From contig JAODBI010000102.1 of NCBI GenBank assembly GCA_025463875.1, positions 1 through 44,060 on the forward strand: a stretch of 44,060 nucleotides of DNA, read 5' to 3'. The notes under the pieces were generated by a model that made no database searches, was not told where the DNA came from, and saw only the letters and a list, made by a program, of their open reading frames with translations. Below are positions 1,002 to 7,230 of this stretch, one piece after another. The DNA comes from Actinomycetes bacterium. GTDB lineage: Bacteria; Actinomycetota; Acidimicrobiia; IMCC26256; PALSA-610. Both the position numbers and the translations under genes were made by a program. Each line of letters begins with the position of its first letter. The stretch's first letter is position 1.

Positions 1002-2699
1002 TCAGTTGGCGGCGATGCGCACGATGGGTTGGGGGATCCGGAGGCCGCCGGCCGAGCCGTAGAACTTGGCCTTCCCGAACGTGAAGACACCACCATCGGC
1101 CGCAGCCATCCAGTAGCCCGCGCCGTCACCGGAGGCGGCGATACCGACGATCGGCTGGTTGAGCCGGATGTTTCCCGTCGACCCGAAGAACGGAGCGTTG
1201 AACGAGAAGATGCCTCCGTCGGAAGCAACGAGCCAGTACCCGCCGGTCACCGGGTCGGCGGTCATGCCGACGATGGGCTGGTTGAGTCGAATCGCGCCGG
1301 TCGATCCGTAGAAGGCCGCGTCGCCGAAGGCGAAGATGCCACCGTCCTTCGCGACGAACCAGTACCCCTTGCCGCTGATCGTCGCGGTCATGCCCACGAT
1401 GGGTTGATTGAGTCGCACGCCTGCGAGCGATCCGAACAGCCTGGCGCTGCCGAACGCGTGGACGCTGCCGTCCCGCCCGACGAGCCAGTAACCACGGCCG
1501 TCCGGGGTGGCGGCAATGTCGATGATCGATGAGCGGAGGGGAAGGCCCGGGGCCGACCCGTAGAACTTGGCCGAACCGTGCGTGAACACTCCGCCGTCGG
1601 CGCCGACGAGCCAATATCCTCCGCCGGACGGCGTCGCCGCCATGCCCACGATCGGGCCGTTGAGCTTCTGTCCCGCCTCCGAGCCGTGCGGGGCCGCCTG
1701 GCCGTACGCGTAGATCGCGCCACCCGAGCTGGTCAGCCAGTAGCCGGTACTCGCCTTGGAGACGATGTGGCCGCCATCCGGGGGCGGCGGGGGCTTCGTG
1801 ACGGTCTGGTAAATGAGGGCGACGTGACCTCGTCCGTGCCACTGGCCCTGGTAGTAGGGGGCGCTGATCTGCCCGGTGGGCGAGCTGAAGCCGGAACCTC
1901 CGCCGCCGCCCGCGCCGACTCCGCCACCGCCGCCACCGAAGTAGCCACCGCCGCCACCGCCGCCACCGGAAGCACCCGCGCCTCCGGCCGCACGGGTGGA
2001 GGGCGACGTTGTCGGACCGGCGCCCGAGGTCGCACCCGTACCACCGACTCCGGGAGCGCCGGGCATTGCCGCCCCACCGCCGCCGGTGCCCGCGGGCTGT
2101 CCTGCTGCTCCGGCGCCCGTGGTGTGAACGGTGCTACCGCCGCCACCCGCACTCAACAGCGCGGCGCCGCCACCGCCACCGCCGCCGGCCGCCAGCACGA
2201 GCGCGCCGCCCGCACTGAACACGAAGCTGCCAGCGCCGCCGCCACCACCGGCCGTCGTCGAGCTGGCTCCCATGTCGCCGGTCGAGATGGTGTAGTTCTG
2301 ACCCGGCTGCACCGCGAGGAGCACGTTGACCGCGCCCCCGAGTCCACCGGCCGACTGGCTACCGCTGCCGCCTTGGCCGCCACTGACGTCGACACAGACT
2401 CTTCCGCCGGCCACGTTCGGCGGAACGACCCAGTTCTGCAACTGCGCCGAGAAGTTGAAGTCGACGGCGAAGAAGTTCTTGCCCTGTGCCGCCTCGTACG
2501 TGTCGCAGTTCTGGATGGGAGCGACGCTGTCGTTGGCGCCCACTCCGGCAGCTCCGGCGCCGTGCGCACCCGCGGTCGCGATCACCGACCCGACGCAGAC
2601 CCCGACGGTCGCGAGCGCCATGCGCGCTCGGGGTCGACGCGCGCTCGGCCGTGCGTGCGCGGAAACGGTTGACCGACGACTGCTTCGGAAGTGAGACAT
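1002..2699 (-). CDS. Secreted glycine-rich protein with six C-terminal propeller-like repeats
   Basis: N-terminal signal-like segment, Gly-rich middle (GGGGGGGGYFGGGGGGVGAGGGGGSGFSS), and six repeats of the type GYWLVxxDGGIFxFGxAxFYGS....LNQPIVGMxA. Confidence 0.85.
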   Translation of the reverse strand: MSHFRSSRRSTVSAHARPSARRPRARMALATVGVCVGSVIATAGAHGAGAAGVGANDSVAPIQNCDTYEAAQGKNFFAVDFNFSAQLQNWVVPPNVAGGRVCVDVSGGQGGSGSQSAGGLGGAVNVLLAVQPGQNYTISTGDMGASSTTAGGGGGAGSFVFSAGGALVLAAGGGGGGGAALLSAGGGGSTVHTTGAGAAGQPAGTGGGGAAMPGAPGVGGTGATSGAGPTTSPSTRAAGGAGASGGGGGGGGYFGGGGGGVGAGGGGGSGFSSPTGQISAPYYQGQWHGRGHVALIYQTVTKPPPPPDGGHIVSKASTGYWLTSSGGAIYAYGQAAPHGSEAGQKLNGPIVGMAATPSGGGYWLVGADGGVFTHGSAKFYGSAPGLPLRSSIIDIAATPDGRGYWLVGRDGSVHAFGSARLFGSLAGVRLNQPIVGMTATISGKGYWFVAKDGGIFAFGDAAFYGSTGAIRLNQPIVGMTADPVTGGYWLVASDGGIFSFNAPFFGSTGNIRLNQPIVGIAASGDGAGYWMAAADGGVFTFGKAKFYGSAGGLRIPQPIVRIAAN

Positions 2700-2873
2700 T
2701 CCCGCCCTTGGCTCTACTCGAGGGACTGCGTCTGATGTGACCGTTCACGACCGCGCCGCCGGAAAAATCCCATTGGTGCCGCCGCAATGCGTGACCGAAT
2801 GACGCCCTACGGTCGCGCGACGCAGGCTAACTGCTCAGCGCAACGACCGCCAACACCGAAGCCCGTCAACGAC

Positions 2874-2895
2874 GGGCCGCCCGGGACTCGAACCC
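2874..2895 (-). repeat. Isolated copy of the tRNA-Lys 3' end (T-arm/acceptor), att-like remnant
   Basis: gggccgcccgggactcgaaccc (2874-2895) is identical to 5670-5691 of the tRNA-Lys gene. No matching 5' acceptor half was found nearby, so it is not a complete tRNA. Confidence 0.65.
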
Positions 2896-3064
2896 CGGCT
2901 CACCACGATGTGCAGCGCCGACTCCGGGTGCTGCGGAGGCGAACCACCCCAGAGTCAATCGATCAACTTCGACGTGCTTATTGTTTGATTCCTGTTGACC
3001 AGGAGGTTTGCGAGAAGCGCACGCGGGCGGGGCGCGGTGATCTTCAGCTCCGAAGCGGGAGCGG

Positions 3065-3739
3065 TCAGGCGGTCGGCATCCGACGACGTCTCCTGCTGAG
3101 CATGGTGACGGCAGCGCCCAAGACGACGACCGCCGCGACCAGCAATGCGATCAGCCATCCCCACGAAGAGGACCCACCGTCATGCGACACTGCATCGTTC
3201 GCGCCCGTCTTCTGCGGAGTCGACACGGTCGTCGACGGTGCCGTTGCGACGGGTGTGAGCGTGCCGTTCCCGTTGAATGCCGCCTTGGTCCTCTCGGCGA
3301 AGGGCGAGCGTATCCAGCGCTCCGAGGTGACGGTTGCGCCCGCGCCCAGGATTTGAGGAGGCATACCGACCCAGACGTTGTTCCCGTCGCTGGCGTAATA
3401 GACCCGCAACTCCCCGGCTTGCGGGTTATCCCACCGGTCGCCGACCGCGAGATGGCAAATCGGGAGATTCGAAGGTGGCTTCTCGCTCACTACCTTGCCG
3501 AAGATCGAGGTAGGCAACCAGCTCTGCATGAAGGCGGCCGCTTGGGTGCTGTCGAGCACACGCGGCGCGGCACCCGGACAGGTCACCTTCGCACTGAGGA
3601 TGACGATGCCGTCGCCGATGTCGGTTCCGTCAGTCGCCGCCCGCGCGGGTGACGACGCGGCCAGCACGACGAAGAGCGCGGCGACGACGGCAATCGACAC
3701 GACGGGGCGACGAGCAACAAAGGGGTGCACACCCATCAT
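3065..3739 (-). CDS. Secreted/membrane-anchored hypothetical protein (signal peptide, C-terminal TM helix and Arg-rich tail)
   Basis: N-term VVSIAVVAALFVVLAASSPARA; C-term WGWLIALLVAAVVVLGAAVTMLSRRRRR. Confidence 0.7.
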   Translation of the reverse strand: MMGVHPFVARRPVVSIAVVAALFVVLAASSPARAATDGTDIGDGIVILSAKVTCPGAAPRVLDSTQAAAFMQSWLPTSIFGKVVSEKPPSNLPICHLAVGDRWDNPQAGELRVYYASDGNNVWVGMPPQILGAGATVTSERWIRSPFAERTKAAFNGNGTLTPVATAPSTTVSTPQKTGANDAVSHDGGSSSWGWLIALLVAAVVVLGAAVTMLSRRRRRMPTA

Positions 3740-3806
3740 TTCACGGTACCAGTGTCCGATATCGGGGGGCCGCGCGAGCCGCGTTACGGATGGGCCCTTG
3801 GACGCA

Positions 3807-3839
3807 TAGGAGGGGATGGGCCAAGCCCATCCCCTCCTA
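3807..3839. terminator. Perfect 15-bp stem / 3-nt loop hairpin in an intergenic region
   Basis: taggaggggatgggc-caa-gcccatcccctccta, located downstream of the minus-strand gene ending at 3888. No clear T-tract. Confidence 0.6.
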
Positions 3840-3887
3840 CCGTATGTTCCTGCTCAGCGAACGGGCGCTGTGTCAGATTGTCTAGTC

Positions 3888-5474
3888 CTAGCTGTCACCG
3901 CATCCGAAGTCGGAAACTCCGGGATACGTCTCCGTACATGCCTTGCTGAAGGTGAACGTGTCCGTCGTCGAGGTGTTGCTCGCCCGGATGTGCAGGAACG
4001 CTGTGCTGCTCACCGATGCGGTCGTGATGTCCTTCAGCGCCCGTATCTGCGCGGACGACGGAGGACCGACGTTGGTCGGCAGGTTCGCCGTCTGGGAATG
4101 GGCGACGGCGAGGTTATTGAACGTCGACGCGATACCTGCGGTTCCCGACCCGCAGAGCGCGAGGGCGGTCGGCAAGAACGGGAAGACCACGTCGGAATGG
4201 GCCGCTGCCTGCGACTCGCCCGCGGTCGACGCCGGGACCTGCTCGACGTAGCCGTTGAACGTTACGACCGCCGTCGGGACCGCCAACTCGCCGATCACCG
4301 GCTTGTTGAGCGAGACGTCGGTGCTGCTGTCCGCCAAGCCGGTAACGAACGAGCCGGGATTCACCCAGCCTCCCGTGATGTCGAAGCCCTCCGGCGTGTT
4401 CAGCCCGCACGCGTCGGAACCGGCCACCAGCGACGGGTTCAGGTCGAGCTCGGCACCGAGGTTCAACGCCGTGTCGCCATTGGTCGGTGCAGTCGCGCTC
4501 GGCTGACCGATGACGAGCGCCGCCGTCGCCGCCGTGGCCGTCGCGGCCGCGTTGAGCACGACAGTCGTGGCGTTCGTCACCGTCTTGATGTAGTCACCGG
4601 CCGGGATCCCCGCACCCGTGATCGGCAGGTCCTTGTCCCACGACTGGAAGCTCGCGCTCGCCGATGTCAGGGTCGTCGACGTGGTCGTCGTATGGCCGTC
4701 GTGCACCGTACGTGCGGTGGTCTGATTGGTCGCCGGACCGACGCTCAGGCTCTGGCCGGTGCCCGTCGCCGTGGCGACCGGCGCGACAGTCACCTGCGTT
4801 GCGCTGGTGCGCACGGTGATCTTGGCGCCGTGCGCCATGTTCGTGCCGGTGATCGTGCGACCGACGTCTCCCGGTTGGAAGTTGGCAGTCGCCGACGTCA
4901 CCGTGCCGGAGCCCGACGAGGTCGCGCCGTCGGTCACCGTGCGCGAGGTGGTGTTCTCGAGCGTCCACCTCCGGCCCGTGAAGGTCCCGGTCGCGTTCGC
5001 GCTGAGCACCGCGTGTGTCGCGTCGGTGAACGTCTTGATGAACGTACCCGCCGGAAGGCCCGACGCGGTGAGGGCGGCCGCGGGAGTCGCGCCACCGTTC
5101 AGCGACGCCGACGAGGCCCAGCCGCTGATCGGGTGATCGACGTCGGTGGAGGCGAAGTGACCCACCGTCAACACGACGTTCGGGCTTCCGCTCGTCGTGC
5201 TGCCGGTCACTTGGCGACCAGCGCCGAAGTGCCACACGGCCTGCGGGAAGTCCTCAGTCTTGTAGAAATGGCTCGCGAAACCGTCCGCGGTAGTCAACGT
5301 GCACGAGACCTTCAAGTTGCTCTGACCGGACGGCGTGTTCGGGAACATCGAGATGCCGCCGGATCCGGCGGTGGCACACGAGTCCACTACCGCTCCGGCG
5401 GGGCTGGCGAGGATCACGCCGGTCACGGCCAACGCGGCCGCGATCAACGCAATCGTGAATTTACGTCGAGACAT
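3888..5474 (-). CDS. Secreted protein with tandem Ig-like/phage-tail-like repeats
   Basis: Start MSRRKFTIALIAAALAVTGVILASPAGA. Internal repeats such as RTVTDGATSSGSGTVTSATANFQPGDVGRTITGTNMAHGAKITV and RTVHDGHTTTTSTTLTSASASFQSWDKDLPITGAGIPAGDYIKTV. Confidence 0.75.
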   Translation of the reverse strand: MSRRKFTIALIAAALAVTGVILASPAGAVVDSCATAGSGGISMFPNTPSGQSNLKVSCTLTTADGFASHFYKTEDFPQAVWHFGAGRQVTGSTTSGSPNVVLTVGHFASTDVDHPISGWASSASLNGGATPAAALTASGLPAGTFIKTFTDATHAVLSANATGTFTGRRWTLENTTSRTVTDGATSSGSGTVTSATANFQPGDVGRTITGTNMAHGAKITVRTSATQVTVAPVATATGTGQSLSVGPATNQTTARTVHDGHTTTTSTTLTSASASFQSWDKDLPITGAGIPAGDYIKTVTNATTVVLNAAATATAATAALVIGQPSATAPTNGDTALNLGAELDLNPSLVAGSDACGLNTPEGFDITGGWVNPGSFVTGLADSSTDVSLNKPVIGELAVPTAVVTFNGYVEQVPASTAGESQAAAHSDVVFPFLPTALALCGSGTAGIASTFNNLAVAHSQTANLPTNVGPPSSAQIRALKDITTASVSSTAFLHIRASNTSTTDTFTFSKACTETYPGVSDFGCGDS

Positions 5475-5530
5475 GCCCCAACTCCCCCCGATGACGAAAG
5501 CACCGACGTGCGCCGGGCGCTCGTGTTTCC

Positions 5531-5581
5531 AAATGTTTCCAACCGCTTTCCCAAAACCGGAGGAGCCGGAAACATTTTTTT
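5531..5581 (+). terminator. Hairpin with 10-bp arms followed by T7; terminator-like on the plus strand
   Basis: aaatgtttcc (5531-5540) ... ggaaacattt (5568-5577), with a T-run 5575-5581. Confidence 0.4.
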
Positions 5582-5668
5582 GTCGCCGCGCGTCGGACCA
5601 GGTCAGACGTGCGCGTCCAGTTGACGGGCGCCGGCCTTGAACGCGCCGACCCATTCGCGCATTCGTCG

Positions 5669-5741
5669 TGGGCCGCCCGGGACTCGAACCCGGAACCTGC
5701 GGATTAAAAGTCCGTCGCGCTGCCAATTGCGCCAGCGGCCC
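5669..5741 (-). tRNA. tRNA-Lys (anticodon TTT)
   Basis: Minus strand: gggccgctggcgcaattggcagcgcgacggacttttaatccgcaggttccgggttcgagtcccgggcggccca. Acceptor gggccgc/gcggccc; anticodon loop cttttaa. Confidence 0.92.
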
Positions 5742-5885
5742 CGTGCGTCTTCGTGGCGGTCAACACGACGCGCGCCGGGGAAGTTCCGCGGCGTCGCGTA
5801 GAACGCTGACCGTCCCAAATCGCGCGCAAGGCTATTGGGTCCGCCGCCGCGCTCGTCCGAATGGGGTCGAGGAGCAGCGCGCGGA

Positions 5886-6779
5886 TCAGGTGGCGATGGG
5901 CAGGACGAGGAGCTTGATGTTCCGGGCGTCGGGGCCGTACGCGAACACGAAGTGGCGCGACCCGGCCGGGGCATCGATCGTCACCGGGCCGTAGTCGGCC
6001 TTGCCGCTGCACGTGCCGGGTTGGCTCGGATACAGGGAGAGTTGCAGCGAACCCGGAGTCACCGCGTACGGGACCTGCGACGTGCCGCCAATGCTCGTCG
6101 ACGTGTTTTCGGTGTCGGTGGCGGTCTTCAGGCAACCCGTGACGCCCGCAATGCCCGCGCGCCATGAACCGTCCGGGACGACGTACTGGATCGACGCCGC
6201 GCCGATCGCGATCAACGCCTTGGCCGGCACCGCGTTGAGCGTCGAGTTGATGTCGGAATGCGACTCGAAGAAGCTCTGATCCGCGCCGGCGGCCGGGCCG
6301 TTGCCCGACTTCGGATCCTGGCCCTGGAAGACGATGGTCACCTGCTCGCCGCCCTTCCAGGTCTCGCTCTGCGTGATGATCTGGTGGTCATCGGCGCGCG
6401 AACCGGCGACGAAGGCGATGGTCGACCAGTTGCCGGAGGAGTCGCTCGCCGTCACGTCGATGTAGTCGCTCGCGGTGCCGAAGGGAACGGTTGCCAGCTT
6501 CTTGCCGCACGAGTCGTTGCCGCTGAAGCCCTGCCACACGTCGATGTCACCGCTCGGATACGTCGCATTGGTGAAGAGGTTGACGAAGCGAACTCGCGCC
6601 TTCTGCGGACCGGGATCGGTGAAGCACTTCCCGTTGGCGACGCCGGCGCTCGTCGTCGTGACTCCACCGGGCGCGGTGCTGTCGGACGGCGCGGCGGCCG
6701 GCTTCGAACCGCCACCGCCCCCGCACGCCGCGAGCAGCAGAGTCGAGACTCCCAGGATGACCAGCGCGCGAGTACGCAT
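5886..6779 (-). CDS. Lipoprotein, possibly DUF4397-like
   Basis: MRTRALVILGVSTLLLAACGGGGG lipobox; body contains ARVRFVNLFTNATYPSGDIDVWQG, which resembles DUF4397 proteins. Confidence 0.7.
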   Translation of the reverse strand: MRTRALVILGVSTLLLAACGGGGGSKPAAAPSDSTAPGGVTTTSAGVANGKCFTDPGPQKARVRFVNLFTNATYPSGDIDVWQGFSGNDSCGKKLATVPFGTASDYIDVTASDSSGNWSTIAFVAGSRADDHQIITQSETWKGGEQVTIVFQGQDPKSGNGPAAGADQSFFESHSDINSTLNAVPAKALIAIGAASIQYVVPDGSWRAGIAGVTGCLKTATDTENTSTSIGGTSQVPYAVTPGSLQLSLYPSQPGTCSGKADYGPVTIDAPAGSRHFVFAYGPDARNIKLLVLPIAT

Positions 6780-6915
6780 GTGCCGGCGAACGACCACGTG
6801 ACTACCTCCGTTTGGGTCGGCAGAAGGTACTCGCGGCGCGGCCGGGCACCCGGCGATACCGGCAGTGGCGACTGAGCACAGGGGCGCCGCTGCGCAAATT
6901 TGCGGCCTTCTGCGC

Positions 6916-7230
6916 ATGCGGACGCTGCTCTACGCGGCCAAGGACGCGGAGGGCCGGCCGGTCGCGGTCGCGGGCGTCGCCCTCTTCGGCGACCTCGCCT
7001 ACCCGTTCACGTTGCTGAGCGACCCCGACACAAGACGGCCGCGTCGTCGCGCTACATGCTGCACACCTTCGTCGCGCTCGACCTCGGCCAGGAGGGTGCG
7101 CGCCACCTGGTCGTCGGTTCGGCGCTCCGCGAGCGCGAAGGCAACCACTACTTCCAGCACCCTGCTCGGCTACCGGGTGCGCAACCTTCGACTCGACGTA
7201 ACGCCCTGGCCGCGCGGCAGTTGCGCGACG
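6916..7230 (+). pseudogene. Frame-disrupted small gene (acetyltransferase-like or unknown)
   Basis: MRTLLYAAKDAEGRPVAVAGVALFGDLAYPFTLLSDPDT is in one frame, KTAASSRYMLHTFVALDLGQEGARHLVVGSALREREGNHYFQH is in a second, and LLGYRVRNLRLDVT is back in the first. Confidence 0.55.

Follow-up and report, generated by a model that had tools for sequence, protein, structure and literature searches.

A 2.8-kb islet at tRNA-Lys(TTT) as a probable remnant of a horizontally acquired genomic island in an uncultured actinobacterium

Introduction

Genomic islands of the Islander class combine an intact tRNA gene with a same-orientation fragment of its 3′ end on the 3′ side, lie at sites that are occupied in some relatives and empty in others, span 2–200 kb and carry a tyrosine integrase gene (PMC4383910). 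T-arm type sites are nearly as common a kind among them (PMC4383910). Cis-mobilizable elements (CIMEs) are decayed ICE/IME that keep attL and attR, are devoid of integration and transfer genes and, once accreted to another element, can be mobilised in cis (PMC5704250). At the ssrA gene of Dehalococcoides, islands that have no integration module hold their cargo between 20-bp direct repeats of the 3′ end of the RNA gene (PMC3146451).

Here we describe an islet of 2.8 kb that resembles each of these systems in part. It lies in a contig of 44,060 nucleotides, which is referred to below, over its whole length, as the window. The window belongs to genome G000, a draft MAG of 403 contigs, and all compared genomes are likewise draft MAGs. 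An original prediction had read the islet as the att footprint of integration into a tRNA-Lys 3′ end, enclosing two secreted or surface proteins, and had called it ‘decayed or trans-mobilised’. Our comparison with relatives argues for decay: the islet is most probably what is left, on the tRNA side, of a genomic island that was acquired horizontally, integrated at the tRNA-Lys 3′ end and was later stripped of its distal part.

Results

The islet and its insertion site

The 22-bp sequence GGGCCGCCCGGGACTCGAACCC delimits the islet on both sides, in the same orientation and with 0 mismatches (Table 1). By chance, no such repeat is expected, as 100 shuffles gave 0 matches even with 3 mismatches. 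The entire G000 genome holds 2 copies, and each of the 3 other genomes of the genus holds 1. The right copy forms part of the 3′ end of a tRNA-Lys(TTT) gene that both ARAGORN and Rfam recognise as intact. The left copy corresponds to the same stretch of the tRNA, and neither program found a tRNA at 2874–2970; the claim that this copy stands there with no tRNA 5′ half was thus correct. The insert itself spans 2896 to about 5667. Its borders are not marked by any step in GC content, so that composition is of no help here.

Table 1. Coordinates of the islet, its borders and its genes in the window
Feature	Position	Strand	Basis
Displaced 22-bp tRNA-Lys 3′-end fragment (tRNA positions 51–72), distal att remnant	2874–2895	+	Adjoins native downstream flank of tRNA; flank identity with G003 empty site
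Doubly truncated SARP/BTAD regulator gene fragment, in-frame TGA, no start	2895–3053	-	Residues 28–85 of G002 protein
p224, 224 aa, apparent signal peptide and C-terminal membrane anchor	3065–3739	-	ORF, conserved as coding gene
Perfect 15-bp inverted-repeat hairpin between p224 and p528 genes	3807–3839	.	Sequence
p528, 528 aa, secreted (predicted), tandem repeats	3888–5474	-	ORF, conserved as coding gene
tRNA-side element end, non-coding	5475–5667	.	Mostly near-identical to G002, except ~50-bp indel
tRNA-Lys(TTT), intact, integration target; 3′ end is reconstituted att copy	5668–5741	-	ARAGORN; Rfam tRNA 67.2 bits
22-bp copy within tRNA 3′ end (tRNA positions 51–72)	5670–5691	+	Repeat comparison

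An empty site and a longer filled site in sister species

In the sister species G003 the site is unoccupied. Positions 1–1650 of its locus L015 match window 1258–2895, and L015 1627–2882 matches window 5668–6918. The two matches overlap in one 22-bp copy, which means that the flanks are continuous in G003. When the window flanks were joined at the repeat, they aligned with G003 in a single continuous alignment of 1936 columns with 85.5% identity, and the left repeat took the position of the native tRNA 3′ end. This continuity identifies the sequence left of 2874 as the flank that natively follows tRNA-Lys downstream. The original prediction had anticipated that a close relative would show such an empty site, with the 22-bp sequence present once, and the occurrence of this site in G003 supports the att footprint. 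Among the relatives, we found no case of the two surface genes remaining syntenic regardless of the repeat.

A second sister species, G002, also carries the p528 and p224 genes beside tRNA-Lys, with ~90% identity to the window over 2.7 kb. The far end of this element continues into a full-length SARP/BTAD regulator gene encoding 382 aa (L013 4993–6141; BTAD E 6e-37), beyond which the contig ends within a frame that has a TetR-type helix-turn-helix. A homologue of that frame adjoins a SARP gene in G003 (L102) and scores as TetR_N. No 22-bp copy is present at the far end of the G002 element. A 29-bp match at G002 C313:6190 was considered as the distal att and rejected, since it sits in a protein-coding frame reading like uvrA.

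The window retains a fragment of the SARP gene, which was absent from the earlier inventory of two proteins. The fragment shares 84% identity with the G002 protein over the residues listed in Table 1. Its start codon is lost in a ~159-bp gap relative to G002, and its other end abuts the 22-bp tRNA fragment directly, the junction being ambiguous by only 1 bp. As this gene fragment derives from a gene that is full-length in G002, the window islet is the shortened form of the element.

Divergence from the surrounding chromosome

Between G000 and G002, dS amounts to 0.165–0.171 in the two islet genes and to 0.42–0.67 in five surrounding backbone genes; between G000 and G003, dS in backbone genes is 0.22–0.48. 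High identity with G002 extends as far as the tRNA 5′ end; from there until 7230 G000 resembles G003, not G002. The islet dS to G002 lies well below that of the backbone and hence indicates that the islet moved horizontally. Since the G002-like tract is bounded by the tRNA and followed by G003-like sequence, G000 can be described as a chromosome of the G003 type that carries an insert of the G002 type at tRNA-Lys. We consider horizontal spread of the islet to be demonstrated by this divergence. The dN/dS values of the two islet genes (0.36–0.44) suggest that both are under some constraint.

Cargo of the islet

The two open reading frames that had been proposed as secreted or surface proteins are present and conserved as coding genes. 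Their signal peptides and the membrane anchor of p224 are predictions read from the sequence, and the two proteins may act at the cell surface. Two hairpins had also been claimed in the islet; the one located between the two genes is probably a terminator.

Neither p528 nor p224 received a Pfam, NCBIfam or PHROG assignment above cut-off, and p528, p224 and the SARP fragment matched no transfer family. Searches of the islet proteins in IMG/VR, of p528 in phage records and of p224 in plasmid records returned no matches. Residues of about 87–323 of p528 form tandem repeats of about 75 residues, which are similar to the actinophage decoration protein PDB 8eci (with profiles of seven and three sequences, E was 8e-8 and 1.4e-4, respectively). 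AlphaFold predicted p224 with a pLDDT of 62 and no significant PDB fold match, and p528 with a pLDDT of 27.

Within the family, p528 was found only in this genus (4/14 genomes), and p224 was found in 6/58 genomes of the order. A search of genome contigs with p224 gave only two Actinomycetota MAGs (BP_122 and BP_119), with matches equal to those of G002 and G003. Elsewhere in the genus, homologues of p528 and p224 are likewise paired (G000:C202, G003:C137 and G001:C53), which makes the islet pair an additional copy of a two-gene set. No tRNA or integrase was found near these other pairs. The second pair shares the same neighbourhood in two sister species (L101 10173–12360 in G000:C202 and L100 2196–4604 in G003:C137), and in both it adjoins the same class of large ‘MYPFWDIAVWPLIQAA’ gene. 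The p528/p224 pair belongs to a narrowly distributed protein family and spreads horizontally.

Outside the islet, window 1002–2699 (minus strand) encodes a large Gly-rich secreted protein with repeats, which has no Pfam or NCBIfam match. Its DNA gives about 50 matches in G000 alone, indicating a strongly expanded family.

tRNA-Lys(TTT) as an integration site in relatives

Other genomes of the family and order repeatedly show a second copy of the tRNA-Lys 3′ end, 36–49 bp long. The copy is 49 bp long and 10 kb from the tRNA in G004, 43 bp and 2.2 kb away in G007, 36 bp and 4.6 kb away in G036, and 38 bp and at a contig end in G011; G008 has two copies of 43 bp each, 872 bp apart. The displaced fragment usually starts near the anticodon loop in these relatives, and in the T arm in the window. 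Immediately 3′ of tRNA-Lys, three genomes have tyrosine-integrase genes or pseudogenes: a frameshifted one in G001, made up of PF00589, Arm-DNA-bind_4 and PHROG integrase pieces, a partial one in G004, and a C-terminal part in G011. Judged from these sequences, tRNA-Lys(TTT) is a recurrent integration hotspot in the family. The G001 orthologue of the EAL gene of the window is on a contig other than that of tRNA-Lys.

Several of these loci have features of their own. In G007:C172 (L091 7668–9984), the 43-bp duplicate bounds a 2.2-kb islet with one aldo/keto reductase gene and no integrase. The two same-orientation fragments in G008:C50 (L087 7868–7910 and 8740–8782) show the pattern expected of tandem island remnants. 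In G036:C70, a tyrosine integrase frame (L088 8105–9313; PF00589, 51 bits) starts just beside the tRNA-Lys 5′ end and runs to the contig end, and the 36-bp fragment lies opposite it, on the 3′ side of the tRNA. A tRNA-Lys(CTT) gene in G002:C224 (L054 1294–1368) also adjoins an integrase C-terminal fragment.

The islet was said to contain no integrase, and indeed none was detected on the whole 44-kb contig by a PF00589 genome search or by tblastn with 13 integrases. No integrase of this element was found on the G002 contig either, the distal end of the G002 element being beyond the assembly.

Discussion

From the anatomy of the locus, the empty site and the hotspot taken together, we infer site-specific integration by a tyrosine integrase. 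An element with an attP copy of the tRNA-Lys(TTT) 3′ end would have entered the chromosomal tRNA-Lys 3′ end, in keeping with an intact tRNA, a native 3′ end displaced by 2.8 kb to a position beside its native flank, and the unoccupied site of G003. A longer state of this element occupies the equivalent tRNA in G002, where the two surface genes are followed by an intact SARP gene and then a TetR gene. In the lineage of the window, a deletion would then have fused the displaced tRNA fragment to an internal part of the SARP gene, trimmed the tRNA fragment from the usual ~36–49 bp to 22 bp and removed the distal part together with any integrase. The loss is directly visible as a truncated gene; its timing and extent are parts of the proposed scenario. 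The two remaining genes are still coding sequences under some constraint. The remnant would not be self-mobile, and any renewed mobilisation would depend on an integrase supplied from elsewhere.

The short length of the distal fragment can be viewed in two ways. The 22 bp could represent the original core of a T-arm type site, a common type (PMC4383910). We favour trimming by the deletion that cut the SARP gene, because the edge of the fragment and the truncation of the gene coincide.

The decay half of the original alternative is supported by the truncated SARP gene and the longer version in G002, whereas trans-mobilisation found no positive evidence. Still, the 2.8-kb unit might itself be mobile, as a minimal cargo element with functional 22-bp att sites served by a trans-acting integrase encoded elsewhere. 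The horizontal transfer of the cargo, the two perfect 22-bp copies, the integrase genes elsewhere in the G000 genome and the other integrase-less islet of 2.2 kb in G007 all agree with this. We nevertheless consider it unlikely, as the only other copy, that of G002, is longer and has no 22-bp copy at its distal end, the edge of the unit cuts the SARP gene, and the single phage-type integrase beside a tRNA that was examined in G000 (L049) is located at tRNA-Leu, not tRNA-Lys. A bolder version, and a decidedly improbable one, would be a still-active minimal cassette that encodes two secreted proteins and passes from species to species through the in-trans action of an integrase on 22-bp tRNA-Lys sites, with the decoration-protein-like p528 repeats hinting at a phage link.

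Vertical inheritance of an ancestral two-gene locus that G003 lost by short-repeat recombination is very improbable: precise deletion between the 22-bp repeats would yield the G003 arrangement, but vertical descent cannot give an islet dS to G002 of about a third of the backbone dS, and the repeat of the tRNA 3′ end would still need integration to explain it. We give even less weight to an assembly artefact. A draft MAG in 403 contigs might contain unrelated sequences joined at a 22-bp repeat; the tRNA-side junction, however, is reproduced independently in G002, and a misjoin driven by the repeat would not create the SARP–tRNA junction with its 1 bp overlap. Finally, the left fragment can be drawn as a T-arm-like stem and loop, yet there is next to no chance that 2874–2970 is the end of an intact, unusual tRNA, as ARAGORN reports none, Rfam reports none at E up to 5, and the upstream part aligns to SARP coding sequence.

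As a remnant of an acquired island, the islet is an ordinary kind of phenomenon and a good example of it. With one sister species showing the empty site, another a longer form, and an islet measurably younger than the surrounding chromosome, it documents cleanly how, in uncultured actinobacteria, an island was acquired at a tRNA and then decayed.

The overall architecture is that of Islander islands (PMC4383910), with an intact tRNA, a same-orientation displaced 3′ fragment downstream on the 3′ side, foreign DNA in between, and a site that is occupied in G002 and empty in G003. The length of 2.8 kb falls within the Islander range, near its 2-kb lower limit. However, Islander islands require an integrase gene inside, and the islet has none, which makes it a remnant and not an intact island of this class. 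The islet resembles CIMEs (PMC5704250) in its two att-like copies and in having no integration or transfer genes, and it occupies a hotspot used by integrase-bearing elements in relatives. ICE/IME ancestry and att function would have to be assumed for the islet, and the distal of its two perfect 22-bp copies, shorter than the 36–49 bp of relatives, may be trimmed. We therefore do not claim CIME membership and would call the islet CIME-like, in that it seems to behave like a CIME or an island remnant. The Dehalococcoides ssrA islands (PMC3146451) involve a serine recombinase and stand in tandem, whereas the window has a single islet at a hotspot whose enzymes are tyrosine integrases; in both systems, integrase-less cargo resides at a hotspot where other islands carry an integrase.
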